Assembly: GCF_028290785.1 (NCBI RefSeq) | Contig: NZ_JAQGJD010000227.1 | Coordinates: 1 to 64,000, forward strand | DNA length: 64,000 nucleotides | Direction: 5' to 3' | DNA from: Tardiphaga sp. | GTDB lineage: Bacteria > Pseudomonadota > Alphaproteobacteria > Rhizobiales > Xanthobacteraceae | Program-made: the position numbers and the translations under genes | Part shown: positions 21,724 through 53,168 of the stretch, one piece after another | How positions within the stretch are numbered: position 1 is the first letter of the stretch | Layout: every line of letters begins with the position of its first letter | Notes under the pieces: generated by a model | What the model was told of the DNA's origin: nothing | The model's input: only the letters and a program-made list of their open reading frames with translations | Database searches by the model: none

Positions 21724-24700
21724 TTAGGATTGCGTCTCAAGAACCGCCGCCGGCTCTTGCTGCGGAGGTACGTGCTCCGACAACGCAGCGTCTTGCACTA
21801 AGTCCACAGCGTCAGCCTTTGGCCGGTCATCCCCGTGATTGGGGTAAATCCGGAACCATGCGACGTACAGCGCTGGCAGAAACAAGAGTGTCAGCAACGT
21901 TCCGACAATGATGCCGCCCATCATCGCGTAGGCCATCGGGCCCCAGAAGATCTCGCGCGCGATCGGAATCAGCGCGAGACTTGCGGCGGCCGCGGTCAGC
22001 AGGATCGGCCGCATACGATGTTCGGTCGCCTCCACGACGGCTTCCCAGGCCGCGCGCCCCTGCTTCCTCAAATCCTCGATCTGCACGATCAGGATCACCG
22101 AGTTTCGGATCAGAATGCCGATCAGCGCCAGCACACCAAGGATGGCAACAAAGCCGAGAGGTGCGCCGCTTGGCAGCAGGGCCATGACGACGCCGATCAC
22201 GGCGAGCGGCGCGACCGCGAATACCAGGAACAAGCGGTGGAAGCTCTGCAACTGAATCATCAGGACCGTAGCCATGACGAAAAGCATCAACGGAACGACG
22301 GCCACGATCGGCGCCTGGCTCTTAGCGCTCTCCTCGACGGAGCCGCCGATATTCACCGAATACCCTGCAGGGAGCCCCTTGGCGAACTGCGTCACCTTCG
22401 GCGCGAGCTGATCCACCACGGTCTTCGGCTGAACGTCATCGACGATCCCCGCCTTCAGCGTAATCGTGGGAACGCGCGCGCGCCGCCAGATGGTCGGCTG
22501 CTCGATCTCGTAGCGCACATTGGCCACTGCCCCGAGCGGCACCGATTGACCGCCGCCCCCCGTCAATTGCAGGTCCCGCAGCGTATCGATCGAGGCGCGC
22601 TCCGCCGTAGTAGCCCGGCCCGTGACATTCACGAGGTAGATGCTGTCACGAACCTGGGTGATCGGTGTGCCCTCAAGCACGGAGTTCAAGGTCGTCGCGA
22701 TGTCTTCCGACGTCACGCCAAGCTGGCGCGCCTTGTCCTGAAGTACGTCCACCTTGACGACGCGCGCAGGCTCCATCCAGTCGAACACGACGTTGCCAAG
22801 ACCGGGATTGCTCCGCACAACGCCTGCAAGTTGCTGCGAGATATCCCTGACCTTCGCGATGTCTGGCCCGCTCACGCGGTATTGCACGGGACGCCCCACC
22901 GGCGGGCCGACCTCGAGTAGCTTGACGTAGGTGTCGGTACCGGGAAACGTCTTCCTCAAATACTCCTCAAATTTCGCCTTGACGAGGTCGCGCGCTTTTA
23001 CACCGCCCTTGGTCACAACTACCTGCTGGCCAAACCACGTATTGGCTGTCTGCACGTCGAACGACAGCACGAACCGCGGCGCGCCCGTGCCGACATAAGT
23101 CGACCAATGCTCGACGGAGCCATTGCCCTGTAGCTGTTCGCGCTCGAAGCGCGCCATCTGCGCGTTGGTGTCTGCAATCGAGGCGTTTTGCGGCAGATTC
23201 CAGTCGATCACCAGTTCATCGCGATCCGACGACGGAAAGAATTGCTGCTGCACGAAATTCATGCCGAACAACGCGATGAAAAACGCTGCAACCGTCACGC
23301 CGACCGTGGCCCAGCGGTAGTGCATGCAGACGAGCAGCAGGCGGGTGAACATCTGCGCCAGCCGGCCCTTCTCGTCATGGTGGCCCTTGATTTTGGCCGG
23401 TAGGATGGTGACCCCGAGCAGCGGCGTGAACAGCACCGCGACGATCCACGACACGATCAGGGAGACCCCGATCACCACGAACAGGGTGAAGGTGAACTCG
23501 CCGGCATTGCTGCTGTTCAGCCCGATCGGGATGAAGCCCGCGACGGTGACCAGCGTACCCGTCAGCATGGGAAACGCGGTCGATGTATAGACGTGGGTCG
23601 CCGCCTTCTCCAGGGGATCGCCGACCTCCAGCCGGGCCACCATCATTTCGACGGCTATCATGGCATCATCGACCAGAAGGCCCAGCGCGATGATCAATGC
23701 ACCGAGCGAAATTCTCTGCAATGAAATGCCGGCATAGGCCATCACAACGAACGTAATGGCGAGAACCAGCGGGATCGCAATGGCGACGACAAGTCCGGCG
23801 CGCATGCCCAAGCTAAGAAAGCTGATGGCAAGAACGATGACTACGGCCTCGAACAGCGCTTCGGTGAATCCCGACACGGCATGCTCGACGACGACTGGCT
23901 GATCCGCGACCAGGTGAACGCCGATGCCGATCGGCAGGTCGGCAATGACCTTTGACATTTCCTGCTTCAGCGCCTCGCCGAAGTGCAGCAGGTTTGCGCC
24001 GGACTTCATGCCGATGGCAAGCCCGATCGCAGGCTGACCGCTGTACCTGAACAAGGTCTTGGGCGGATCGGCGTAACCGCGCGTGATGGTCGCGACATCC
24101 GTCAAGGGAAAGAAGCGGTCGTTGATCCGCAGGTTAACCGCTTTCAGGCTTGCCTCCGACGTGAACTGGCCGTTCACCCGCACGGCGATGCGCTCGGGGC
24201 CTTGCTGAAAGACGCCGGACGGCGCGACCGCGTTTTGCCCCTGCAGGGAAGCCATGATCGAATGGACATCGAGGCCAAGGGCCGCGATTTTCCGCGTCGA
24301 GAATTCAAGGTAAATCACCTCGTCCTGGGCGCCCAGAATATCGACCTTGCCGACGTCCGGCACGGCCAGGACCTTGGCGCGGATGCCTTCAACCTCATCG
24401 CGCAGCTGGCGCTGGGTCAAACCATCGCTGGTGAAGGCATAGATGTTGCCGAACACGTCGCCGAAGCGATCGTTGAACCCCGGTCCGATTACGCCTTGCG
24501 GAAAGTCGCCCTTGATATCCGCAATCATATTGCGGACCCGGATCCAGGTCGGCTTGACGTCGGCCGCCTTGGTGTTGTCGCGCAAATAGACGAAGACGGT
24601 GGTCTGGCCCGCGACCGTCAGGCTCTTGGTGTAGTCGAGCGATTCCAGCTCCTCGAGCTTCTTCTCGATCCGGTCAGTGACCTGACGCGTCATCTCTTCA

Positions 24701-24876
24701 GGCGAGGCGCCCGGCCACTGCGCCTGGATCACCATGGTCTTGATGGTGAAGTCAGGATCTTCCTGACGACCAAGCTGAAGGTACGCAAAAAGGCCTGCCG
24801 CCATGAAGGCGATCATGAAATACCAAACAAGCGAACGATGTCCGAGCGCCCAGTCGGAAAGGTTGAACGGCTTCAT
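21724..24876 (-). CDS. RND-family efflux transporter, inner membrane pump
   Basis: A 1050-aa HAE-type RND permease beginning MKPFNLSDWALGHRSLVWYF. It has the normal two-fold layout: 12 membrane helices and two large periplasmic loops. The proton-relay pair in helix 4 is present (LGLLVDDAMIAVEMM). The start at 24876 overlaps the upstream adaptor gene by ATGA. The ORF in the track begins 400 bp earlier because its frame is open inside that gene. It exports small hydrophobic compounds with its adaptors and an outer-membrane channel that is not encoded here. Confidence 0.92.
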   Translation of the reverse strand: MKPFNLSDWALGHRSLVWYFMIAFMAAGLFAYLQLGRQEDPDFTIKTMVIQAQWPGASPEEMTRQVTDRIEKKLEELESLDYTKSLTVAGQTTVFVYLRDNTKAADVKPTWIRVRNMIADIKGDFPQGVIGPGFNDRFGDVFGNIYAFTSDGLTQRQLRDEVEGIRAKVLAVPDVGKVDILGAQDEVIYLEFSTRKIAALGLDVHSIMASLQGQNAVAPSGVFQQGPERIAVRVNGQFTSEASLKAVNLRINDRFFPLTDVATITRGYADPPKTLFRYSGQPAIGLAIGMKSGANLLHFGEALKQEMSKVIADLPIGIGVHLVADQPVVVEHAVSGFTEALFEAVVIVLAISFLSLGMRAGLVVAIAIPLVLAITFVVMAYAGISLQRISLGALIIALGLLVDDAMIAVEMMVARLEVGDPLEKAATHVYTSTAFPMLTGTLVTVAGFIPIGLNSSNAGEFTFTLFVVIGVSLIVSWIVAVLFTPLLGVTILPAKIKGHHDEKGRLAQMFTRLLLVCMHYRWATVGVTVAAFFIALFGMNFVQQQFFPSSDRDELVIDWNLPQNASIADTNAQMARFEREQLQGNGSVEHWSTYVGTGAPRFVLSFDVQTANTWFGQQVVVTKGGVKARDLVKAKFEEYLRKTFPGTDTYVKLLEVGPPVGRPVQYRVSGPDIAKVRDISQQLAGVVRSNPGLGNVVFDWMEPARVVKVDVLQDKARQLGVTSEDIATTLNSVLEGTPITQVRDSIYLVNVTGRATTAERASIDTLRDLQLTGGGGQSVPLGAVANVRYEIEQPTIWRRARVPTITLKAGIVDDVQPKTVVDQLAPKVTQFAKGLPAGYSVNIGGSVEESAKSQAPIVAVVPLMLFVMATVLMIQLQSFHRLFLVFAVAPLAVIGVVMALLPSGAPLGFVAILGVLALIGILIRNSVILIVQIEDLRKQGRAAWEAVVEATEHRMRPILLTAAAASLALIPIAREIFWGPMAYAMMGGIIVGTLLTLLFLPALYVAWFRIYPNHGDDRPKADAVDLVQDAALSEHVPPQQEPAAVLETQS

Positions 24877-25946
24877 GGGTTCTGATCCTTGATAAGGACA
24901 TGCTGCCCCGGCGTGAGGCTGTGAATTCCGGCGGTAACGATGCGCGCGCCGGGATAAAGCCCGTCGATGATGCGGGCACCTCCGGTGTCGTCGGCGAGAC
25001 CGACCTTGTGCAACGACACGGTGCTGGCAGGCTGATCGACGACCCAGACAAAATTGGCGCCATCCTTGGCCAGTACCGCCGACGCGGGCACGCGCAAAGC
25101 CGGACTTTCGGCTTTGCCGAGCTTTGCCGTAACGGTCGCGCCCAGACGGAAGCTGTCTGGCGGATTGTTCAATGCGATGCGGGCGCGCCGCAGGCGCGTG
25201 ACCGGATCGGCCTGGGGTGCGATCTCGCGGACCCTGCCTTCCACCTGAACGGCAGGCAGCAACTGCAAGCAAACCGTGAATGGCAGTCCAATTTCCAGTG
25301 GTACCGGGAAGTCCTCGCCGATATCGACCACCGCTTCCCTGATGTCAGGCCTCGCAACCGTCACGACATTCTGGCCGGGGGAAACCACCTGTCCGACTTC
25401 CGCGCCCACTGCAGTGACAACTCCTGCGAAATTCGCCTTGAGCTGTGCATAGCCGCGTTGCTCAATGGCCTTGATCAAGTTTGCCTGTGCATGCGCCACC
25501 GACGCGTCGGCACCGGCCCGTGCCTGCTCGGCATTGTCCAACGTCTGTTTTGTAGTGGCTTGGGTTGTGATGAGGGTTCGCTTCCGCTTCTCCGTCGCCG
25601 CAGCGGTCGCCAACTGCGCCTCGGCCTTCGCGAGCTCGGCCCTGGCCGAGTGCACTGCAAGCTCCAGAGCCGTGGAATCGATGACACCGACGGTTTGTCC
25701 GTCGCTGACGAGATCACCGACGGAGACGGGACGTCCGGTCAGGCGTCCCAAGACGCGGAACGCGAGATTGGTCTTGAACTGCGGCTCGACAACGCCCACC
25801 GCGACGGGGCCGTCCGTGCGGCCCGGCTCAAGAACCATCGACAACACGGGTCGCACAGGCTCGGGCGCTTTCGCGTCCTGCTGACATCCAGCCAGCATCA
25901 GCGCGGATACAAGTGGGCCGGTTGCGATCATGGCGCGCCGGTTCAT
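24873..25946 (-). CDS. RND efflux adaptor (membrane fusion lipoprotein) 2
   Basis: A 357-aa HlyD/AcrA-type adaptor with an N-terminal lipoprotein signal (lipobox LAGC, MLAGCQQDAK). It has a barrel-sandwich domain (AFRVLGRLTGRPVSVGDLVSDGQTVGVID), a coiled-coil hairpin (residues about 90-165) and a beta-barrel segment. It overlaps the pump gene by four bases (ATGA) and the other adaptor by four bases, so the three genes are one tightly coupled operon. Two different adaptors per pump suggest a hetero-hexameric adaptor ring. Confidence 0.88.
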   Translation of the reverse strand: MNRRAMIATGPLVSALMLAGCQQDAKAPEPVRPVLSMVLEPGRTDGPVAVGVVEPQFKTNLAFRVLGRLTGRPVSVGDLVSDGQTVGVIDSTALELAVHSARAELAKAEAQLATAAATEKRKRTLITTQATTKQTLDNAEQARAGADASVAHAQANLIKAIEQRGYAQLKANFAGVVTAVGAEVGQVVSPGQNVVTVARPDIREAVVDIGEDFPVPLEIGLPFTVCLQLLPAVQVEGRVREIAPQADPVTRLRRARIALNNPPDSFRLGATVTAKLGKAESPALRVPASAVLAKDGANFVWVVDQPASTVSLHKVGLADDTGGARIIDGLYPGARIVTAGIHSLTPGQHVLIKDQNP

Positions 25947-27172
25947 GACGGGTCTCCCTCATATGTCACGGGCTGGCCAACGCTCAGCAGCTTGCCGCCG
26001 TCGATGACGACGCGGTCGCCCGGCTTGAGCCCGGCCTTGATCAGTACTTCACGGGCTTCATAACCGCCGATCGTCACCGGCTTGAGCGCAGCCGTTTTGG
26101 TCGCCGGATCGACGGTCCAAACCGCCGGCTTCGATCCCGCCGCCACCAACGCACTCCAGGGCAACGCGATCTCCGGCAGGGCTTTCGCTTTGACGGTTCC
26201 TGCAACGGCGCTTCCAAGCGTCATCGCGGCCGGCGGATCCTGAATGGCTACTTTGACCCGAATGGTCGAACTCTTCGGGTCAACCGCGGGCGAGACTTCC
26301 CTGACATCTCCGTTTGCCGTCGCGGCCGCGTCAGAGACCAGTGCCAGCGACACGCGGCTGCTATCGATATCGCTAAAGAAAAGCGATTCGTAGACGTCGA
26401 AGACGGCGTCCCGCTCTCCGTCCTGCGCCAGTGAAAACACCGGTTGCGCGGCCTGTACGATCTGGCCAACTTCCAGATTGCGCCCGGTGACCACGCCGGC
26501 GGCTTCGGCGCGCAGCGCAGTATGGTTCAGGGCGTCTTTTGAGGTTCCAAGCGCAGCTCTTGCTGCTTCAAGCCCACCTTCTGCGGTTCGCAATCCCTCC
26601 TGCGCCTGATCGTATGCCGTCCGCGTCGTGAAACCGCTTGCGATCAGCGCCTTCTGCCGTTCGAAGGTAGCGCTGGCTACCCGCAACTGGGATTCTGCGG
26701 CCAGCACGGCGGCGCTGGCGGCATCGACGTCGGCCTGCTGCTCGGCGGGATCGAGCACAGCCAGGACTTCACCAGCCTGGACGCTGGCGCCGACATCGAC
26801 ATAGCGCGCGAGCACACGTCCGTTGACGCGGAACGAGAGATCCGCGCGAAACCGGGCCTGGATTTCGCCGGTCAGGGTGACGGAGGCCTGTCGGTCGCGC
26901 GGCTGCACGATCGCCGTGCGCACGATCGCGGCCCGAGGGACAGGAGCAGCGGCGTGATCGTTGCAGCCACTCAGTGCGGTCGCGACAAGCGTAGCCGCGA
27001 GCCCGCAAAGCGCCTTCAAGGCGCCGTTGGTTCGAACGGTATTGGTCTGGTTTGAAGAGCCGGGTTTCACAGCGCATCTGCGGTCGTCCGCTCCCTCATT
27101 TACTTCACGCTGCAGAATGGCCTGCTCCAGACTTGCAGGATCCGGGCTGAGCATTGTCACGATGATCTCCAC
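25943..27172 (-). CDS. RND efflux adaptor (membrane fusion lipoprotein) 1
   Basis: A second adaptor of up to 409 aa and the first gene of the efflux operon. The lipobox LSGC (ATALSGCNDHA) is preceded by a hydrophobic stretch. However, the start at 27172 leaves about 50 extra residues before the signal sequence, which is unusually long. A GTG in the AVKPGSS segment would give a normal signal peptide, so the true start is uncertain. The barrel-sandwich domain (DLSFRVNGRVLARYVDVGASVQAGEVLAVLD) and coiled coil are intact. It lies divergent from the TetR gene at 27374, with an operator between them. Confidence 0.85.
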   Translation of the reverse strand: MEIIVTMLSPDPASLEQAILQREVNEGADDRRCAVKPGSSNQTNTVRTNGALKALCGLAATLVATALSGCNDHAAAPVPRAAIVRTAIVQPRDRQASVTLTGEIQARFRADLSFRVNGRVLARYVDVGASVQAGEVLAVLDPAEQQADVDAASAAVLAAESQLRVASATFERQKALIASGFTTRTAYDQAQEGLRTAEGGLEAARAALGTSKDALNHTALRAEAAGVVTGRNLEVGQIVQAAQPVFSLAQDGERDAVFDVYESLFFSDIDSSRVSLALVSDAAATANGDVREVSPAVDPKSSTIRVKVAIQDPPAAMTLGSAVAGTVKAKALPEIALPWSALVAAGSKPAVWTVDPATKTAALKPVTIGGYEAREVLIKAGLKPGDRVVIDGGKLLSVGQPVTYEGDPS

Positions 27173-27282
27173 TGGTTGCGCCGGATGATCGGGGTCGAAC
27201 GCGCACGTGGCGGCTCAGCCGGTCATTCGAATGAGCTGTCACAGCCCAGCTACCGAAGCCGGCTAGTGACGCAATAATCAAA

Positions 27283-27297
27283 CTATACCGTATATTT
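27283..27297. promoter_or_regulatory. Putative TetR-type operator, ACTATAC copy 1
   Basis: ACTATAC-C-GTATATT is a 15-bp near-palindrome between the efflux operon and the divergent TetR gene. A related 15-mer occurs at 29597. The position fits autoregulation plus control of the pump. Confidence 0.5.
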
Positions 27298-27373
27298 TCT
27301 TTTACTTGCATTTCCGGCGTGGCCATGTCAAGTGAGATTTAGGCGCGCACAGACTCGTGATTGGGAATTGGTG

Positions 27374-28036
27374 ATGGCGAAGAACAAAAGTCCAAAACGC
27401 GGCAGACCTCCCAAGGAGCTTGCCGGCGACGTCCAAACGCGGATTCTCGATGCAGCCCAGCAGCTATTCCTCGAAAAAGGATTTCGAAGCGCCAGCATCG
27501 ACGATATCTCCGCACTGGCCCCCGCGAGCAAACCGACCATCTACGCCCACTTCCCCGGCAAGGAGGCGCTGTTCGTGGCCGTGGTGGCCCGGACCATCAA
27601 CGGATTAACGGATTTCGAGGGGTTCACGCCGGCAGGCCGCACGACCCAGGAAAAGCTCACCAATCTCGGCATCGAGATCGTGGAAAGATTTGTCGAGGAC
27701 ACACTGGACCTCACGCGCGCGACGATCGCGGAGGCGCGACGATTTCCCGAGTTAAGCCGAAATGTTCACGACGCGGCGCGAGACCGCGCGGCTGGAGCCG
27801 TTTCGCAGCTCTTGAACGAGACAACGCAGAAGGTTGCGCGTTCACCAAAAGGACCTTTCAGCGCAAAACGAAGCGTTGCGACCGCGCAGATGTTCATGGA
27901 TCTCATCCTGCTTCCGATGCTGATGAGATCTTTGATGGGTGAGGAATTGAAGGATCTCAGAAAGGAGCTGCCGACGTTCCTGCACGAACGGGTCAATTTC
28001 TTTCTTGCGGCTTGCGAGGCAGACTGGAAGCCGTAA
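27374..28036 (+). CDS. TetR-family regulator, probable repressor of the adjacent efflux operon
   Basis: A 220-aa protein starting MAKNKSPKRGRPPKELAGDV. The helix-turn-helix region is ILDAAQQLFLEKGFRSASIDDISALAPASKPTIYAHFPGKEALF, a standard TetR/AcrR DNA-binding domain. The C-terminal domain resembles the AefR-like group. Divergence from an RND operon is the usual layout for a drug-responsive repressor. The track start at 27332 adds 14 codons. The ATG at 27374 is preferred because it begins the basic AT-hook-like arm. Confidence 0.85.
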   Translation: MAKNKSPKRGRPPKELAGDVQTRILDAAQQLFLEKGFRSASIDDISALAPASKPTIYAHFPGKEALFVAVVARTINGLTDFEGFTPAGRTTQEKLTNLGIEIVERFVEDTLDLTRATIAEARRFPELSRNVHDAARDRAAGAVSQLLNETTQKVARSPKGPFSAKRSVATAQMFMDLILLPMLMRSLMGEELKDLRKELPTFLHERVNFFLAACEADWKP

Positions 28037-28056
28037 ATCAGGCCGGACTCCGTTTG

Positions 28057-28710
28057 CTATCTTTGCCACACGGCCTTGGGACGCAATTCGGCGACGGGAT
28101 CGATCGACCGAGCCCACGGAGCTTGACGCAGCGCGCCGGCGCAGAAATCCATCATCTCGTCGAACGCGGGCCGAACGGTAGCGGCGTTGATCCGCGACGG
28201 ATTGAGATATCCGTCCATCGCTTCAAGCAAGCAACAGGTCATCGCCATCGGATTTCCCGGTCGCAGTTCGCCGCTCCCCTGCCCGCCAGCGACGATCGCG
28301 CGCACAATCCCGTGGATCCGGTCTGCGTAAGACAGGGCGACCGTCCAGTTCTCGCGTACCGCCGCAGCGACCAATTCGTGCTGCTTGCCATCGTGCTTCA
28401 GCCGATGTTCGTGCAGCAACGAGATTGCCTTCAGAACAAACGTTAGACGCTCCACAACACAGCCGCTCCCGCCAGCCTCAAGCGTTGCGACTGCGTAGGC
28501 CTGTTCGAACAGATCGGCCACGACCGCCTCTTCGATCGCCTGCTTTGAGGGGAAGAAGCGGTAGACATTGGCGGGAGACATTGACGCCGCGCGAGCGATA
28601 TCGGCAACGGTTGTCTTCTTGAAGCCGATCTCGCGGTGCAAGTGGACGGCAGCTTCCACGATCCGCCGGCAAACATCTGACGGTCTGCTCTGGGTTGTCA
28701 CCTCTCGCAT
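28057..28710 (-). CDS. TetR-family regulator
   Basis: A 217-aa protein from MREVTTQSRPSDVC with the DNA-binding segment RIVEAAVHLHREIGFKKTTVADIARAASMSPANVYRFFPSKQAIEEA. The C-terminal half resembles the group that regulates efflux genes, but its ligand is unknown. It is convergent with the other TetR gene (20 bp between stops) and lies 10 bp downstream of the small gene ending at 28721, so it is probably part of that minus-strand transcript. Confidence 0.83.
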   Translation of the reverse strand: MREVTTQSRPSDVCRRIVEAAVHLHREIGFKKTTVADIARAASMSPANVYRFFPSKQAIEEAVVADLFEQAYAVATLEAGGSGCVVERLTFVLKAISLLHEHRLKHDGKQHELVAAAVRENWTVALSYADRIHGIVRAIVAGGQGSGELRPGNPMAMTCCLLEAMDGYLNPSRINAATVRPAFDEMMDFCAGALRQAPWARSIDPVAELRPKAVWQR

Positions 28711-28720
28711 CGCCCTGGCC

Positions 28721-29158
28721 TCAGCGCGAAGGGATCGCCTGCAGTTCGCGCCGGCAGGCCTCGCCGAAGAAACGCAATGGATCCATTTCCTCCATGAACT
28801 CGGGCAAATCAACCAATTCCCGGTTTGGCGACAGATAGGTTTCGATGATCAGGCGACCTGCCCGCTCGGCGGCTTGAACGACTTCATCGCTGGACGAGAT
28901 CCGCATCCGCCCGACCAGCGCATACAGGTTGACCAATTGTGGAATTTCGGATTTGTCGCTGACCAGCGCGTCGGCGTATATCTTGGAAGCCTCCTCGATG
29001 AAGCTTCGATAGAGCCGCTCGCGTTTGGAAATGGACCGGGCAAAGTGGCGGTCGCGAAGCCTGCGACGCCGAGTCACCCATCCAGTCACGATGGTGGAGA
29101 TCGCCCCGAAGGCCGAGCCGCCGAACGCGGCGAAGGCGGGAAAATAAATCGTGTTCAT
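28721..29158 (-). CDS. Small membrane-anchored protein of unknown function
   Basis: A 145-aa protein starting MNTIYFPAFAAFGGSAFGAI. One N-terminal hydrophobic helix is followed by a basic patch (TRRRRLRDRHFARSISKRERLY) and a helical cytoplasmic domain. I do not recognise the family. An upstream ATG at 29173 is possible. The gene lies between the signal-peptide gene at 29163 and the TetR gene at 28710, all on the minus strand with gaps of 4-10 bp. Confidence 0.65.
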   Translation of the reverse strand: MNTIYFPAFAAFGGSAFGAISTIVTGWVTRRRRLRDRHFARSISKRERLYRSFIEEASKIYADALVSDKSEIPQLVNLYALVGRMRISSSDEVVQAAERAGRLIIETYLSPNRELVDLPEFMEEMDPLRFFGEACRRELQAIPSR

Positions 29159-30792: not shown

Positions 30793-31668
30793 CTACCGAT
30801 GTCGTCGTGTGCCGCTAACAACAGGCGACGCCATCGAATCTTCAGCTTTCGCGGCAGCAGCTTCCCGATGCAGCGCTACGGCCTGCTCCGCAGCCGCCAC
30901 CGCTCGGCCGTAACGGAACCAGGGAATCCGCGGCCAGAGATGATGCACCAGATGATAGTTTTGGTTCAGCATCAGGACCTGGGGCAGCCTGCCGCGAAAC
31001 ATCCGCGTACTTTCTAGCGGGTGCGTGGATGTGTGCGGATAATGCACCGCCCATGCGCCCGACAATTCAAGCAGCGCGCCGGAAATCAGCGCGGGTCCGA
31101 TCCAGCCCCACAGCAGGAATTCGATGCGTCCCGTCGAGACGCATGCAGCGATCACCGATATCTGTAGCGCGACCGTCGCCAGATGTTCCAATAGTTGTCG
31201 GCGCCTGCCCGCCCACAACCCCCTGCGCAACATGAAGTGATTGTCGTGCAGAAGCCGTACCACCGTCCACGGCGGCAGCAGCCAACGCGGCCGGCGTCCG
31301 ATGACGAAGTCGGGATCGCGCTCGGCGTCGTTGGTGAAGGCGTGATGCTGCAGGTGGATGACGCGGAAAAGCGGAAACGACAGGCCTTCGATCGCCACCG
31401 AAATGCGCCCCATCCAGGCATTGATACGGCGGTCCGGATGCGCGTTGCCGTGCACGGCCTCGTGGCCGACGGTGTAAAAACAATACAGACATAGGAACGC
31501 CACGGCGCCGGCGGCATAGCGCGAGATCGCGCCGTTCCAGAACAGCAGCGCGGACGCTGTAAGGACCGTCAGGTCGATGGCGAACACCCATACGGTGGGA
31601 TTGCCGACCAGTCGTTCCGGTAGCTGGATCAGCGAGCGATCGATCTGAACATTCGAGATGCGCGCCAT
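30793..31668 (-). CDS. Membrane fatty-acid desaturase / hydroxylase
   Basis: A 291-aa integral membrane di-iron enzyme from MARISNVQIDRS, with GGAGG just upstream of the ATG. All three histidine boxes are present: HEAVH (His69-His73), HLQHH (105-109) and HLVHH (239-243). The third box (NQNYHLVHHLWPRIPW) is like that of carotenoid ketolase/hydroxylase-type and acyl desaturases. The gene is divergent from the polyketide synthase and shares its operator region, so it probably tailors the polyketide chain. The 376-aa ORF in the track runs back through the operators and is not credible at its N-terminus. Confidence 0.87.
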   Translation of the reverse strand: MARISNVQIDRSLIQLPERLVGNPTVWVFAIDLTVLTASALLFWNGAISRYAAGAVAFLCLYCFYTVGHEAVHGNAHPDRRINAWMGRISVAIEGLSFPLFRVIHLQHHAFTNDAERDPDFVIGRRPRWLLPPWTVVRLLHDNHFMLRRGLWAGRRRQLLEHLATVALQISVIAACVSTGRIEFLLWGWIGPALISGALLELSGAWAVHYPHTSTHPLESTRMFRGRLPQVLMLNQNYHLVHHLWPRIPWFRYGRAVAAAEQAVALHREAAAAKAEDSMASPVVSGTRRHR

Positions 31669-31731
31669 CTGGCGCCTCCGCGTGGTCCGCGTGTGTGTAT
31701 CCTGCGCGTATCGACACATCGAAAAAAGCAA

Positions 31732-31752
31732 AATGCACTTATTGGTTGTATT
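31732..31752 (+). promoter_or_regulatory. Cluster operator, site 1
   Basis: AATGCACTT-N6-TGTATT, a 21-bp near-palindrome matching WATRCACTT-N6-TGYATW. It lies 64 bp from the desaturase start and 128 bp from the PKS start, in the divergent promoter. The right half (TTGTAT) could overlap a -35 element for the PKS direction. Confidence 0.75.
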
Positions 31753-31880: not shown

Positions 31881-39575
<7,695 letters not shown>

Positions 39576-44462: not shown

Positions 44463-44483
44463 AATACACTTTATGAGTGCATT
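44463..44483 (+). promoter_or_regulatory. Cluster operator, site 2
   Basis: AATACACTT-N6-TGCATT, a full match to WATRCACTT-N6-TGYATW. It lies 84 bp before the start of the disordered-protein gene at 44567, in a 130-bp gap that also contains TTATATC as a possible -10 region. Confidence 0.75.
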
Positions 44484-44566
44484 TAAGCACGTTATATCTT
44501 GACGCGAGCATTACTGCATTGGCAGAATGCGTACGTCCAAAACCCTTGGCCAGATGGGAGGACTTC

Positions 44567-45214
44567 ATGGTGACCAACGAAGAACGCGAACAGGATCAGC
44601 AGCGCGACCGCGATGACGCACGCGCCCGAGACAGAGCCCGCCAACGCGACCGCGACCGTTCCTCGCGGCACACCCGCCGCGACTCTTCCCCGCGCAACTC
44701 CGCTCCTTCGAATTTGGGGGCGGTCGTTCGCGACGTTGATCGACTGGCGTATTCGCTGACTCGCGCCGGCGCTCGCGCCTATTTCGGCACTGTCGGCGCG
44801 CTTGGCGATCTGGTCGTCAACCTCGCCGACTCCCTCTATTCATCGCCCCACGGTATCGACGACCGGGATCGCTCCCGGAGTCACGACAGGGATCGGGACA
44901 GCGACGCCGACGATCACCGCGCCGATTCACGCGAGCGTAACGAGCATCGCCGTCCCCGATCATCGCGCTCCGAGCGGTCGCGCTCCCTCTCCTCCGACGT
45001 CTACGGCGATCTCAGTCAGGCGCTTCGGGATACGGCTGATGTGTTTTCGGATTCGGCGCGCGAGTTTTCGCAAACCTACGACGACGAACAGGAACGCGAC
45101 GACGACTACGAAGATCGCGTCAGCAGGGCCGAGGAAGATGCGCCGAAGCAGGAGCGGCCGCGACCGCCGCGGACCCGGCCATCGGCACCGCCCGAGCCAA
45201 AAGAAACGACCTAG
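44567..45214 (+). CDS. Arg/Asp/Ser-rich disordered protein with amphipathic helices
   Basis: A 215-aa protein starting MVTNEEREQDQQRDRDDA, with GGGAGGAC upstream. Three low-complexity segments rich in RD, RS and RE dipeptides (about residues 5-45, 100-150 and 180-215) surround two likely amphipathic helices: DVDRLAYSLTRAGARAYFGT...LVVNLADSLY and DVYGDLSQALRDTADVFSDSAREF. I do not recognise the family; the composition resembles eukaryotic SR proteins only superficially. A lipid- or granule-binding scaffold is one possibility. It heads the transcript containing the two UbiB-like kinases. The upstream start in the track (44477) lies inside the operator region. Confidence 0.7.
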   Translation: MVTNEEREQDQQRDRDDARARDRARQRDRDRSSRHTRRDSSPRNSAPSNLGAVVRDVDRLAYSLTRAGARAYFGTVGALGDLVVNLADSLYSSPHGIDDRDRSRSHDRDRDSDADDHRADSRERNEHRRPRSSRSERSRSLSSDVYGDLSQALRDTADVFSDSAREFSQTYDDEQERDDDYEDRVSRAEEDAPKQERPRPPRTRPSAPPEPKETT

Positions 45215-45336: not shown

Positions 45337-46977
45337 ATGTGGCGCATGAGCACCTTCCTGGCAGACGCGGTCCGAAGCTGGGTGGTGCTGTGGGTGCTGC
45401 TCACCTTCAATATCGCGCCGCTGTTGCGCACCACGCTTGGCCTGGCGGCGCGTGGCCTGCCGGTGCCGGTCCGGATTCGTCTTGCGATCGAACGGCTGGG
45501 TACGACCTATCTCAAGCTCGGTCAGTTCATGGCGATGCGCTTCGACCTGCTGCCGCGCGAGATCTGCGACGAGTTGCAGCGCCTGTTCGAAAACGTGCCG
45601 CCGTTACCTTTCGACACGGTACGCGCAGTCGTGGAGGCAGAGCTTGGCGCTCCGCTCGCGGACCTGTTCTCCGGGTTCGATCCGCAACCGATCGGCGCCG
45701 CTTCGATCGCGCAGGTCCACAGCGCGCGCAACCATCGCGGCGAACGACTGGCTGTCAAGATCCAGCGGCCAGATATCGATCGCGTGTTTGAGGCCGACAT
45801 GCGGATCCTCGGGCGGCTGGCGAGGGCGGTCGATTGGTTCGGCTGGTTTCCCAGCCTGGTGCTGAACGACATGGTCGCCGAGTTCGCTACCTTCACCCGG
45901 CGGGAACTGGATTTCGTGCTCGAAGGCCGTACCGCCGAGCGGCTGCGCAGCTACGCAACTACGGCAGAGACCGTGCCGAGAATCTACTGGACGATGACGA
46001 CGCGCAAGGTGCTAACCATGGAGTTCATCGAGGGCCTCAGCATCGCCGAGGCCGGCCGCAGGCTGCAGCGCGGCGAGGCCGCGACCATCCACACCGCTCT
46101 CCCCCATTTTTTCCTCGACGAGGCGCTGCACAATCTCGCTTTCGCCTCGCTGCACCAGTTCTTCGGCACCGGCTTCTTCCACGCGGATCCGCATCCCGGC
46201 AACATCCTGCTGCTGGCCGACAGCCGGGTCGCCTTTATCGACTTCGGCATCTTCGGCATGCTGAGCCGCGAGAAACGCGAATGGCTGGCCGGTTACACCG
46301 AAAACCTCGCGGTGGGCAATATCGACACCGCCTATCGCTACTACGCTAAGCTCTCGACGCCCACCGGGCGGACCGATCTCGAAGCTTTCAGGCGCGAGAC
46401 CAAGGCCGTTCTCAGCGAATGGTACCAGTCATCGTTGCGCGCGAATACGGCTTTAAGCGAGCGTCATATCGGCAAGGTGATTGGCGACATCACCGATATC
46501 CTGAGGCGGCACAGCGTCCGCGTCGATCTCGATACGCTGTTGTTCTGGCGCGCCGCCATCGCGCTGGATTCCAGCGCGCTGAGCCTGTCGGCGGATTTCG
46601 ACCTGATGCGCGAGATGCGATACTATTTCCGGCAGCAGCACCCCTCACCGGTCGATCGGCTCATGGCGGTGGCCACGAGCGCCGCTCGAACGGCCGACGT
46701 CCGACAAGCAGTGACGAACGTTCCGGACGCGTGTGACAAGGCCGTCAGCATGCTTGTCGCAGGACAAGATGCAGGCGCCGTCGCGATCCAGGAGAGCACG
46801 CCGCATCGCCGCACCGTCAACAACTACGCGCGCGCAACCATACTGGCAGCCCTGTCGATCACCACCTGCCCGCTGGCGCTTCAATTCCAGAATGAAACGA
46901 TGCGTGCGGCGGCATGGGTGGTGCTGATGCTGGTTCCGTTTTCGGCAGTATTGATTGCCAAGCCATGGCAGAGCTAG
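45337..46977 (+). CDS. UbiB/ABC1 (ADCK)-family atypical kinase 1
   Basis: A 546-aa protein with the family hallmarks: the KxGQ motif (YLKLGQFMAMRFDLLP), the Ala-rich nucleotide loop (GAASIAQVHSA), the catalytic and metal sites (FFHADPHPGN, FIDFGIFGM), and two C-terminal membrane helices. Family members are ATPases that help move or present polyprenyl lipids such as coenzyme Q and plastid quinones. It begins at ATG 45337 (second ATG at 45346) and overlaps the next kinase by 13 bp. It is not beside ubiquinone genes, so a role specific to this cluster is likely. Confidence 0.88.
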   Translation: MWRMSTFLADAVRSWVVLWVLLTFNIAPLLRTTLGLAARGLPVPVRIRLAIERLGTTYLKLGQFMAMRFDLLPREICDELQRLFENVPPLPFDTVRAVVEAELGAPLADLFSGFDPQPIGAASIAQVHSARNHRGERLAVKIQRPDIDRVFEADMRILGRLARAVDWFGWFPSLVLNDMVAEFATFTRRELDFVLEGRTAERLRSYATTAETVPRIYWTMTTRKVLTMEFIEGLSIAEAGRRLQRGEAATIHTALPHFFLDEALHNLAFASLHQFFGTGFFHADPHPGNILLLADSRVAFIDFGIFGMLSREKREWLAGYTENLAVGNIDTAYRYYAKLSTPTGRTDLEAFRRETKAVLSEWYQSSLRANTALSERHIGKVIGDITDILRRHSVRVDLDTLLFWRAAIALDSSALSLSADFDLMREMRYYFRQQHPSPVDRLMAVATSAARTADVRQAVTNVPDACDKAVSMLVAGQDAGAVAIQESTPHRRTVNNYARATILAALSITTCPLALQFQNETMRAAAWVVLMLVPFSAVLIAKPWQS

Positions 46978-48566
46978 CCGCTGGGATCGAACGCAGGCGC
47001 CCCGCCCGGCTGGCGCGGCAATGGGGAGGTCCGGTCGGCCTCCGGCGATTCCTCGAACGACGAGGGCCGGTGTTCGTCAAGATCGGCCAGTTCCTGGCGC
47101 TGCGGCCCGACCTGATCGCGTCGGAGTACTGCGTCGAACTAATGCGGCTGTTCGAGCGCGTACCGCCATTTCCGTGGTCCGAGGTCCGCCGCATCATCCG
47201 CGCCGATCTCGGCGCCGAACCGGCCGAACTGTTCGGCTATCTCGACCCCCAACCGCTCGCCGCCGGGTCGCTGGCACAGACTCACTATGCGCGGCTGCGC
47301 AGCGGCCGCGAGGTCGTGATCAAGATCCTGCGGCCCGACGTGCACCGACAGGTCGCGCGCGATCTGCGCCATGCGCGCCGCCTCGCCCGATTGCTGGAGC
47401 TGAGCGGCGGCAGCTTCATCCTCGATCCGCGCGCCACGATCGAGGAGCTGGCCGGCTGGCTGATGCAGGAACTGGATTTCGTGCGCGAGCTGCGCAATAT
47501 CCAGCGGCTGCGCCGGTTGGCCTTTGACAGTCCACTTCAGGTGATCCCGAAACCCTATCCGCAGCTCAGCGGCGACCGCGTCCTGACGATGGACTATGTT
47601 CGCGGCGTCCATGTGATTGATCTGCTCGCAGCGCCCTCCCGAGATACCAGCGATATCGAACAACACGACGACATCGACCGCGGTCTGCTGGCCCGAGACC
47701 TGATCGAGGCGTGCCTGACGCAGATATTCCGCTACCGCTTTTTCCACGCCGATCTGCATCCCGGCAATCTGATCGCAAAACCCGACGGCGGAATCGCCTT
47801 CATCGATTTCGGCCTGTGCACCGAACTCGACGACACCGTACGTCAACGTCAGATGCACTATCTGGCGGCGCTGTATCGCGGCGACAACGAACGCGTATTG
47901 CGCGCGCTGCTCGACATCCTGGTCGCCACCGAGGCGGCCGATCCGGAGGGGCTGCGCCGCGACTTCCTCGCCGCGGCCCGCGCCAGGATCGATCATGACG
48001 GTCGCTCCACGCGCGAGGGCCGCGGCCAGGCCTTCTCGTCCGCCATTGCGAATTACCTCATCGACGTGATCCGCGCGGCGCGGAACAATGGATATCAGAT
48101 TCCGACCCAGGTACTCGCGATGTACCGCGCTTTGCTGACCGTCGAACTGGTCGCGCATCAGCTCGGAAGCCGCGCCGACCTGCGCTCCGTGGGCCGTCGC
48201 TTCATCGAGAAGCTGCAGCGCGACGAAGCGTTTCGCATCATCGATGCCGAGAATCTGGTGCCAACCCTGCTAAGCTACTTCGCGCTGTGGCGTGACTATC
48301 CCGGTCAGGCAAGCCAGTTGCTGACCGACCTTGCCGATAACCGCTTTGTCCTGAAGGTCAATGTCGGTGAAAGCCATGAGACGGAACAGGACCGCAACCG
48401 CCGCGCCCGCGGCTTGATCAGCGCGATCCTGGCCGTCAGCGTCGCGGTACTGCTGGCGTTTCCGGGATCGCCGGCCGCAGGCGGCGGCTGGATCACCGGC
48501 CTGCTGGTGACGCTGCTGCTGTTGCTATACCTCGTGACCTATCTGCACTACCGCCGCCTGAAGTGA
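46965..48566 (+). CDS. UbiB/ABC1 (ADCK)-family atypical kinase 2
   Basis: A 533-aa paralogue of the preceding protein. It shows FVKIGQFLALRPDLIASEY, an altered Ala-rich loop (AAGSLAQTHYA, with Gly and Leu where the first has Ala and Ile), FFHADLHPGN, FIDFGLCTE and two C-terminal membrane helices (ISAILAVSVAVLLAF, GLLVTLLLLLYLVTYLHY). The start at 46965 lies inside the end of the first kinase gene. Tandem, divergent copies suggest a heteromeric pair. It ends 14 bp before the convergent gene at 48580. Confidence 0.87.
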   Translation: MAELAAGIERRRPARLARQWGGPVGLRRFLERRGPVFVKIGQFLALRPDLIASEYCVELMRLFERVPPFPWSEVRRIIRADLGAEPAELFGYLDPQPLAAGSLAQTHYARLRSGREVVIKILRPDVHRQVARDLRHARRLARLLELSGGSFILDPRATIEELAGWLMQELDFVRELRNIQRLRRLAFDSPLQVIPKPYPQLSGDRVLTMDYVRGVHVIDLLAAPSRDTSDIEQHDDIDRGLLARDLIEACLTQIFRYRFFHADLHPGNLIAKPDGGIAFIDFGLCTELDDTVRQRQMHYLAALYRGDNERVLRALLDILVATEAADPEGLRRDFLAAARARIDHDGRSTREGRGQAFSSAIANYLIDVIRAARNNGYQIPTQVLAMYRALLTVELVAHQLGSRADLRSVGRRFIEKLQRDEAFRIIDAENLVPTLLSYFALWRDYPGQASQLLTDLADNRFVLKVNVGESHETEQDRNRRARGLISAILAVSVAVLLAFPGSPAAGGGWITGLLVTLLLLLYLVTYLHYRRLK

Positions 48567-48579
48567 TGCCGCGCCAGCG

Positions 48580-49560
48580 TCACTGCAGCGTGAGATTGGG
48601 GCCGGGATCGAGCAGAAGCCCGTTCTGCGCCAGCACCCAGGTGGAATGCTGCACCACCGCGCGCAGCAGATAGTCGCCGATCGGACTATCGACGAAGATC
48701 AGAACCAGTTCGTCGTTGGCATAGGCCTCCAGCAACAGCCCGCGCAGCATCAGGAAGATCGCTTCGGTGCGCTCGGCTACATTCATGTCGATAAATTCCT
48801 CGCCGAGCCGCAACACCTGTTCGACCAGCCCGACATAGGGCGCTGTCACTTGTCCGAGTTGAACCACAATATTGACGAGGCGTTCGACAATGGCCGGCAA
48901 CTGGTGTGGCGGCAGCGAACGAAGGACGGCGCCTGCCTCCGGCTCGATCTGCTTTAGCGCCGCCCGCAACTGGCGTTCGTATCTGGTCGGCATGAACATC
49001 CATTTGCTGAACCACATGACGATACGGGAGAAGACCAGCGCGATGCGCAACAGCCCGTCATAAGCACCGCGCGTGAAGCTCGGCAGCTTGACCTTCTGCA
49101 CCGGCTGCCAGCAGGCCGGATGGATGTTCAAGATCTCTACGCTCCAGTCGATCAGGATTCCGACAAACGGCGCCAGCAAGGTCTTCTGGATGCTGAGAAA
49201 CGGCAGCCCGCCGAAATTGTATTTCTCCAGCACCCGCACCACCAGGTCCGTCGCGAAGCGGCGCTTCACCGCGCCGGTGCCGTCGCCGAAACGCTCAGAC
49301 TGATGCACTGCGGCTAGTACCAATGCACTCAGGCTCGACTTCAGTCCGCTATTCCAATGCGTCACATCCGGTATTGCCCCGAGCAGGGCGAACACGTCGC
49401 GGGCATCCCGGGCGATGTCTTCCCGGCGGTCGCGGAATTCCTCGATCAGATCTTCCGCGCGACGCTGCACGCGGTCGGCCACCGCCTGCTGTTCCGGCGA
49501 GAGCGGAGCCGTGCGCGGCCCGAACAATCCGCCCAGCAGCCATCCAGAGGCCTCCACCAC
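48580..49560 (-). CDS. Unknown protein, 326 aa, conserved position in the cluster
   Basis: I do not recognise this family. After MVEASGWLLGGLFG the protein has a charged helix (ADRVQRRAEDLIEEFRDRREDIARDARDVF), then mixed helical segments with hydrophobic patches (LPFLSIQKTLLAPFVGILIDW, LLRIALVFSRIVMWFSKWMFM), which may be membrane-associated. The start is doubtful. GTG 49560 has GGAAGAGG upstream, but an in-frame ATT 42 bases earlier sits three bases after GGAGGGG and would add SYLGFLVRATEEAV. The gene is divergent from the UbiA gene across operator site 3. Confidence 0.65.
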   Translation of the reverse strand: MVEASGWLLGGLFGPRTAPLSPEQQAVADRVQRRAEDLIEEFRDRREDIARDARDVFALLGAIPDVTHWNSGLKSSLSALVLAAVHQSERFGDGTGAVKRRFATDLVVRVLEKYNFGGLPFLSIQKTLLAPFVGILIDWSVEILNIHPACWQPVQKVKLPSFTRGAYDGLLRIALVFSRIVMWFSKWMFMPTRYERQLRAALKQIEPEAGAVLRSLPPHQLPAIVERLVNIVVQLGQVTAPYVGLVEQVLRLGEEFIDMNVAERTEAIFLMLRGLLLEAYANDELVLIFVDSPIGDYLLRAVVQHSTWVLAQNGLLLDPGPNLTLQ

Positions 49561-49645: not shown

Positions 49646-49666
49646 TATACACTTATAACTTGCATA
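49646..49666 (+). promoter_or_regulatory. Cluster operator, site 3
   Basis: TATACACTT-N6-TGCATA, a full match to the cluster consensus. It sits between the divergent unknown gene and the UbiA gene. On the minus strand it overlaps TATAAT, a good -10 for the unknown gene. On the plus strand TTGCAT-17-TACTTT is a possible promoter for UbiA. Confidence 0.75.
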
Positions 49667-49800: not shown

Positions 49801-50742
49801 ATGCTGGAGATCGAAGTGGCCCAAGCATCCGGCGACCCGCCAACGCTCGTCCGAAGCCTGGCGTCGTACTTTCGGGAATGGCGGTATCAGGCCAATGCAA
49901 TCATCGCCTGCGTCCTGTCGATGTATGTGGGATGGATCGCGCTCGCTGGAAGCTTTTCGCTTCCGCGACCGGTGATATCCATCGCGCTCGCTGCCGCGAC
50001 GACCGTATGCATGGTGCTGGCGATCTTCCTCATCAACGACGCCGCGGACCGCGATATCGACAAGCTCGTGCATCCCGAGCGGCCGATCCCCCGCGGCCTG
50101 TCGCAGTGGCAGCACATCTATGGTGCCGGCGTTGGCTTGATCCTCATCGCGCTTGCCTGCGCGACGTTCCTGAGCAGCCGATTCCTCGCCGCAGTCGCGC
50201 TGCAGGCGACGCTGGTTATCTTTTATTATAGCTATTTGAAGCGGTTTTTTCCGCTGCCCTGCTCGTCTGAACTGATCGCGCCGCTGATCAGCGCGCTGTT
50301 TCCCGTCACCGCCTTCGCCGTCGTCCCGGAATTTCACGGCGGGTTGCTGATCGCGGTCGCCTGCTTCATCTACTCCTCCGACATGGCACAGGATCTGCTG
50401 GGCGGCATCCATGACGAGACTGGTGATCGCCGCTACCATGTGCGCACTTTCGCAGTAGCCCTGGGTTCGGACATCACGCGGTGGATTTCGGCGACGGCCT
50501 TCATCGTCTCGGTTGGTGCCGGCGTCGCGGTGTTTGTTTTCGGCGCGCTCGGCTGGATCTACCTGGTGACCTTCTCAGCATTCAGTCTTGTGATGCTGAG
50601 GCAGTACCTGCGCGTGTTGCTTGCCGACAGAGACACGTTGCCGACAGCCGCCGGCCGCGCCAATCATTTGGGCGGCGCCTATTACTTCGTTGTCTCGGCA
50701 TCGATCCTGCCGGATTTGCTGCTGCGCCAGTGGCTGGCCTAG
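49801..50742 (+). CDS. UbiA-superfamily prenyltransferase
   Basis: A 313-aa polytopic membrane protein. The first Asp-rich motif is N79-D80-x2-D83-x3-D87 (INDAADRDIDKLVHPERPIP). The second is DMAQDLLGGIHDETGDRRYH followed by RTFAVALG. Both bind the prenyl diphosphate through magnesium. The enzyme transfers a prenyl group to an aromatic or other lipophilic acceptor within the membrane. The acceptor here is unknown. The start at 49801 has AAAGGA seven bases upstream. The track start at 49357 lies inside the opposite gene. Confidence 0.88.
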   Translation: MLEIEVAQASGDPPTLVRSLASYFREWRYQANAIIACVLSMYVGWIALAGSFSLPRPVISIALAAATTVCMVLAIFLINDAADRDIDKLVHPERPIPRGLSQWQHIYGAGVGLILIALACATFLSSRFLAAVALQATLVIFYYSYLKRFFPLPCSSELIAPLISALFPVTAFAVVPEFHGGLLIAVACFIYSSDMAQDLLGGIHDETGDRRYHVRTFAVALGSDITRWISATAFIVSVGAGVAVFVFGALGWIYLVTFSAFSLVMLRQYLRVLLADRDTLPTAAGRANHLGGAYYFVVSASILPDLLLRQWLA

Positions 50743-53147: not shown

Positions 53148-53168
53148 TATACACTTTTAAGTTGTATA
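53148..53168 (+). promoter_or_regulatory. Cluster operator, site 4
   Basis: TATACACTT-N6-TGTATA, the most symmetrical copy (TATACA-N9-TGTATA). It lies 60 bp before the DUF3050 start. The overlapping TTGTAT-17-TATTAA forms a plausible promoter. An imperfect copy (TATACA-N9-TCTATA) overlaps it on the left at 53131-53151. Confidence 0.8.

Follow-up and report, generated by a model that had tools for sequence, protein, structure and literature searches.

Results

Gene Content of the Locus

The window (the whole stretch of 64,000 nucleotides of Tardiphaga sp. DNA analyzed here) contains a gene for a protein rich in Arg, Asp and Ser that is the first gene of an operon with two intact ABC1/UbiB kinase genes on the same strand, with ABC1a directly downstream (Table 1). 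No terminator was found in the gap before ABC1a, where a hairpin can form although shuffled versions of the stretch fold equally well. ABC1b begins at an ATG at 46,965 and overlaps ABC1a. The earlier note had placed the gene at the head of a kinase operon with two ABC1-type kinases and a prenyltransferase nearby, and this arrangement stands: Pfam family PF03109 matches ABC1a and ABC1b with E values of 4e-58 and 1e-61, respectively, and the prenyltransferase belongs to the UbiA family.

Table 1. Features of the polyketide cluster around the gene for the Arg/Asp/Ser-rich protein, numbered from the first nucleotide of the window.
Feature	Position	Strand	Remarks
Operator copy upstream of polyketide synthase	31734..31751	+	Pattern match
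Single-module reducing type I polyketide synthase	31881..39575	+	2564 aa; head of main operon; domains read by eye from sequence
Cluster-specific operator before Arg/Asp/Ser-rich gene	44465..44482	+	TACACTTTATGAGTGCAT; 0 mismatches; also reads on the other strand
Promoter-like site, TTGACG-18-CAGAAT	44499..44528	+	One consensus match, against 0.2 in shuffles; weak
Arg/Asp/Ser-rich protein gene	44567..45214	+	215 aa; two amphipathic helical regions (residues 49-92, 143-178)
ABC1a, ABC1/UbiB-family kinase	45337..46977	+	PF03109; KLGQ, GAAS loop, HADPHPGN, DFG; C-terminal hydrophobic segment
ABC1b, ABC1/UbiB-family kinase	46965..48566	+	PF03109; KIGQ, AAGS loop, HADLHPGN, DFG; two C-terminal hydrophobic segments
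Convergent orphan	48580..49560	-	Predicted all-helical (poor prediction); no Pfam or NCBIfam match
Operator copy between divergent orphan (-) and UbiA (+)	49648..49665	+	Pattern match
UbiA-family prenyltransferase	49801..50742	+	PF01040
Operator copy upstream of DUF3050 gene	53150..53167	+	Pattern match

Upstream of the Arg/Asp/Ser-rich gene, Pfam identifies a thioester reductase, a class III aminotransferase, a START-type cyclase, an acyl-CoA dehydrogenase-like protein and an SDR, and downstream the two kinases are followed by the orphan, UbiA, a linalool dehydratase/isomerase domain protein, a DUF3050 protein and oxidoreductases. The combination found at 31,881–54,019, in which a polyketide synthase is accompanied by a free-standing thioester reductase, a PigE-like class III aminotransferase, UbiA, a linalool dehydratase-like protein and DUF3050, is unusual. 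The same-genus genomes searched contain no close relatives of the orphan or of the linalool dehydratase-like gene, and on plasmids the DUF3050 genes lie in unrelated contexts. The stretch 21,724–28,812 encodes an RND efflux pump, together with two adaptors of the HlyD type, as a candidate exporter of the product, and beside it two TetR-family genes (27.3–28.8 kb) that are candidates for control of the product.

The ATG of the Arg/Asp/Ser-rich gene at 44,567 is preceded by a ribosome site (GGGAGGA-N4-ATG); an in-frame GTG at 44,477 is an alternative start that we disfavor because the gene would then overlap the operator. The frame's synonymous-codon score of +0.049 per codon is the highest of the six frames (the others range from −0.21 to +0.018) and is below the 0.11–0.19 of the neighboring genes, and no competing minus-strand ORF of at least 90 aa was found across most of its length. 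Coding support is therefore moderate: a codon score lower than that of the neighbors limits it, whereas the ribosome site, operator and promoter-like site strengthen it, as does the lack of a minus-strand rival over most of the frame.

Composition and Predicted Helices of the Protein

The Arg/Asp/Ser-rich, charged and disordered make-up that the earlier note described is borne out. The protein contains 41 Arg (19%), 34 Asp (16%), 27 Ser (13%), 15 Glu and 9 Thr, has low-complexity tails, and has many of its Ser and Thr residues adjoining Arg. The RD/RS/RE repeats that it reported are likewise more than a consequence of composition: the dipeptides RD (12), DR (10), RS (7), SR (6), RE (3) and ER (5) total 43, compared with 28.9 ± 4.2 in composition shuffles, of which 5 in 2000 reach 43. 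The charge is nearly balanced, as Asp and Glu are interleaved with Arg, and successive segments along the protein carry +3, 0, −1, −9 and +1.

The two amphipathic helices also claimed there coincide with residues 49–92 and 143–178, whose whole-segment amphipathic moments were matched by none of 2000 shuffles each and whose best 18-residue windows were reached by 1.75% and 0.35% of shuffles, respectively. The Kyte-Doolittle maximum over 19 residues is 1.04, so the protein has no transmembrane helix. A single-sequence AlphaFold model, the helix check that had been suggested, predicts helices at 49–67, 69–92 and 134–191, and tentatively at 4–36, with low to middling confidence (mean pLDDT 64.5); the one predicted in the RD-rich N-terminus may merely reflect charged, low-complexity sequence and not a real helix. 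To judge from these properties the protein is probably mostly unstructured, with charged low-complexity tails around two amphipathic helical regions.

A Cluster-Specific Operator

An operator pattern, YRCACTTWWNRRKTGYAT, was built from the four window sites listed in Table 1; its shape is near-palindromic, roughly TACACTTWTAAGTTGTAT. The window contains 7 matches to this pattern, which represent the 4 sites (3 of them readable on both strands), where 0.32 would be expected, a comparison that is partly circular because the pattern derives from the same four sites. The near-absence of the pattern from the rest of the genome is not circular: beyond the four sites, the 5.28-Mb genome contains one further operator locus, with one mismatch (contig C386), and the reversed-pattern control gave 0 matches genome-wide. 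The cluster operator is real and nearly confined to the polyketide cluster, and the claim that the Arg/Asp/Ser-rich gene has a cluster operator of its own holds for the site at 44,465. A fatty-acid desaturase gene (30,793–31,670, minus strand) diverges from the polyketide synthase gene and probably belongs to the cluster regulon, because an operator lies between the two.

The ABC1 Kinases

All of the ABC1 motifs (KxGQ, Ala-rich loop, HxDxHPGN and DFG) are intact in both kinases. We considered and rejected the possibility that they are orthologues of the ubiquinone UbiB protein, since they score 286 (ABC1a) and 274 (ABC1b) bits against TIGR01982, the UbiB equivalog model with a cut-off of 488, and form a separate clade in the tree. 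In a loop alignment, PLAAGSLAQTH of ABC1b faces PFAAASIGQVH of COQ8A, which puts a Gly at the A339 position; the count along the aligned chain of COQ8A starts at KxGQ, whose Lys we take to be K276. The AAGS loop is also present in the ABC1b orthologue described below and absent from most other ABC1 loops compared. AAGS or GAGS loops were also seen in two kinases linked to DUF6781 (below), the AAGS one being from Shinella (L090).

A Kinase-Orphan Cassette in a Betaproteobacterial MAG

A betaproteobacterial MAG contains adjacent ABC1a and ABC1b genes that are collinear with those of the window (~42% and 41% identity, respectively), and the orphan has a convergent counterpart in the same place (L052:5342-6307; 42% identity), so that the orphan occurs in two proteobacterial classes. 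In the tree the window and MAG kinases pair one to one, with support of 100/99 for ABC1a and 100/100 for ABC1b; the two pairs are sisters (87/84), and their clade lies apart from UbiB and from the DUF6781-linked kinases. By gene order and tree, then, the ABC1a-ABC1b-orphan arrangement and its orthology recur in the MAG. No orthologue-level match to the kinase cassette was found in samples of 289 genomes of the class and 399 of the phylum, and judged by these samples the cassette is rare. The structure model of the orphan (pLDDT 44) is too poor to be used for a structure search, and the orphan was absent from viral contigs.

The MAG contig on the upstream side (L007) overlaps the other MAG contig by 181 bp at ~92% identity; most simply, the two would be strain variants of one locus, and we infer from this that the two sides are contiguous. 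Upstream of ABC1a in the MAG are a phosphate permease and an Rdx protein and, further up, a 95-aa small helix protein, in which Ser/Arg-rich tails flank a single amphipathic helical region. Its likeness to the Arg/Asp/Ser-rich protein was reached by 27 of 2000 shuffles on preselected helices and by 342 of 2000 overall; since this is indistinguishable from chance, we do not call it a homologue, and no homologue of the window protein is detectable beside the MAG cassette. An aldehyde-decarbonylase-like diiron protein is encoded beside the small-helix/ABC1a locus (L007:271-1278, minus strand). The cluster operator is absent from the MAG loci, and the MAG has no homologue of the linalool dehydratase; the latter finding suggests that the cassette moves independently of the other cluster genes.

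Searches for Homologues and the DUF6781-ABC1 Pairing

No homologue of the Arg/Asp/Ser-rich protein was found in 61 relatives or in the plasmids searched, and a pattern scan of the genome's own contigs, a weak search whose patterns lay mostly in the low-complexity tails, found none. The protein has no match in Pfam (0 families at E ≤ 1, the phasin profile included), NCBIfam or PHROGs, and the Pfam scan shows neither an RRM nor a helix-turn-helix. Among solved structures it resembles only one, the NELF-E RD repeat (E = 0.07), a match of composition. The earlier note had named homologues in unrelated contexts as evidence against its proposal; with no homologue found, none came to light. For the same reason the function can only be inferred, and no residue of the protein has evolutionary support: it is an orphan, and its function is not settled by sequence.

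The DUF6781 family (PF20572) provides a positional parallel. On a Polaromonas plasmid a DUF6781 gene lies directly before an ABC1 kinase gene (the pairing in strain JS666 was taken from match coordinates), and 5 of 5 plasmid DUF6781 genes, 3 of them alphaproteobacterial, are directly upstream of such a kinase. When 300 genomes from the order of the MAG were searched for the family, 61 contained DUF6781, and in the Burkholderiales loci fetched an ABC1 kinase directly follows DUF6781 in 25 of 30; the remaining 5 had no ABC1 kinase within the short flanks retrieved. On this genomic evidence, then, genes for small helical proteins recurrently sit immediately ahead of ABC1 kinase genes, an arrangement that the window gene shares in being directly upstream of ABC1a on the same strand. 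The Arg/Asp/Ser-rich protein was also considered as a DUF6781 member, and no relation was found (no Pfam match, an hhalign probability of 0.1, and a motif scan); DUF6781 proteins, unlike it, have no Arg/Asp/Ser tails, and their linked kinases form a separate clade. Among the papers searched none was relevant to DUF6781, the only one that names it being on spiders.

Discussion

We propose that the Arg/Asp/Ser-rich protein is a lineage-specific, phasin-like surface scaffold or accessory for the ABC1a/ABC1b pair, a reading to which we would give a little under an even chance. Its two amphipathic helical regions would dock on a membrane or lipid surface, and its balanced-charge tails would stay disordered and gather partners: ABC1a and ABC1b, which it presumably contacts, and perhaps the prenyltransferase and the late enzymes, which would handle a polyketide-derived, putatively hydrophobic product. 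The cluster-specific regulator would switch the gene on together with the pathway. By analogy, a lipid-droplet location is possible. Phasins likewise have amphipathic, non-transmembrane helices, although our protein lacks a phasin match; ABC1 kinases co-occur with lipid-particle proteins on plastoglobules (PMC4915526), whose fibrillins have a lipocalin domain that is missing from it.

Several observations argue for such a scaffold: segments that are more amphipathic than shuffles without being transmembrane, joined to charged low-complexity tails; an operator common to the polyketide synthase, the Arg/Asp/Ser-rich gene, UbiA/orphan and DUF3050, with first place in the ABC1 operon; and intact kinases in a cassette conserved in the MAG. 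The DUF6781 helical proteins encoded directly upstream of ABC1 kinases strengthen the analogy with partner proteins of such kinases. There are also precedents: COQ8B, in the presence of ATP, streamlines the COQ metabolon although it is not one of its integral components (PMC7615680), while the yeast UbiB proteins Cqd1 and Cqd2 reciprocally control CoQ distribution (PMC8346625). ABC1a and ABC1b share the four ABC1 motifs with these proteins, and differ from them in being a tandem pair in a biosynthetic cluster and in the Gly of the ABC1b loop. The reading is weakened by the lack of a homologue, a MAG cassette without the protein, the lack of a phasin or DUF6781 match and the moderate coding score. 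It does not imply condensate formation, since one study saw no phase separation of peptides with alternating R and D (PMC9324279).

A different relationship between the same partners would make the protein a substrate or regulator, with ABC1b phosphorylating Ser/Thr in the RS/RD tails and so moving it from a surface-bound state to a soluble or clustered one and back, in loose analogy to the SR proteins with their kinases. ABC1b and its orthologue do have AAGS where COQ8A has AAAS, the A339G change in ADCK3/COQ8A reverses its ADP preference and enables autophosphorylation (PMC4718504; PMC7263595), and the protein offers many Ser and Thr next to Arg. However, UbiB-family action on other proteins has rarely been shown (none demonstrated according to PMC7263595; COQ3 phosphorylated by COQ8B, PMC7615680), the MAG orthologue keeps AAGS without a recognizable relative of the protein, and the Shinella kinase has AAGS as well; we consider this unlikely. 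In a fuller version, the protein would be an SR-like scaffold, a naturally de-repressed ABC1 kinase would phosphorylate its Ser/Arg/Asp tails, and kinase activity would thereby govern how a polyketide/prenyl-lipid metabolon assembles on a membrane or lipid surface; this we regard as very unlikely. The protein might instead serve one specific enzyme as a small accessory of the carrier or chaperone kind, and its helices might then bundle with those of ABC1a, ABC1b or the orphan. The COQ metabolon includes COQ9-like partners, and the single-sequence model predicts helices, but the model's confidence is low, there is no fold or homologue to compare, and a bundle would not need long charged tails; this too seems improbable.

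The remaining alternatives set the kinases aside. RS, RD and RE repeats are common to this protein and to eukaryotic SR or Arg-rich mixed-charge proteins (U1-70K, the NELF-E RD repeat), and its Arg-rich tails might bind RNA or DNA in a ribonucleoprotein or, for example, as a cluster-specific regulator. SR proteins, however, combine an RRM with an RS domain, whereas this protein is bacterial, has no RRM and has 13 RS/SR dipeptides beside 22 RD/DR; its Arg-rich low complexity and its one structural resemblance, to part of a transcription elongation factor, must be set against a nearly balanced charge, the lack of an RRM or helix-turn-helix in the Pfam scan, and two amphipathic helices that would be left unexplained, which makes a nucleic-acid binder quite unlikely. 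Finally, the frame could be a spurious or drifting one, high-GC, low-complexity and functionless, between two operons. Its low codon score and lack of homologues fit this, as do the antisense Arg/Asp/Glu-rich frames that also arise in high-GC DNA (L015), but a strong ribosome site, an operator and promoter-like site directly upstream, the best score of the six frames, no minus-strand ORF over most of its length and ordered amphipathic segments make it quite unlikely.

Three results stand firm: an operator specific to the cluster, a conserved cassette of ABC1a, ABC1b and the orphan, and the association of DUF6781 with ABC1 kinases. The targets of ABC1/UbiB kinases, and how these kinases organize the synthesis of hydrophobic molecules, are an unsettled question in the field. 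Judging from the DUF6781-ABC1 pairing, reliance on a small helical partner from an adjacent gene may be a recurrent trait of ABC1 kinases, and the locus described here offers a compact bacterial regulon outside ubiquinone synthesis in which a dedicated operator accompanies two ABC1 kinases, an orphan predicted to be helical and a disordered, charged protein.
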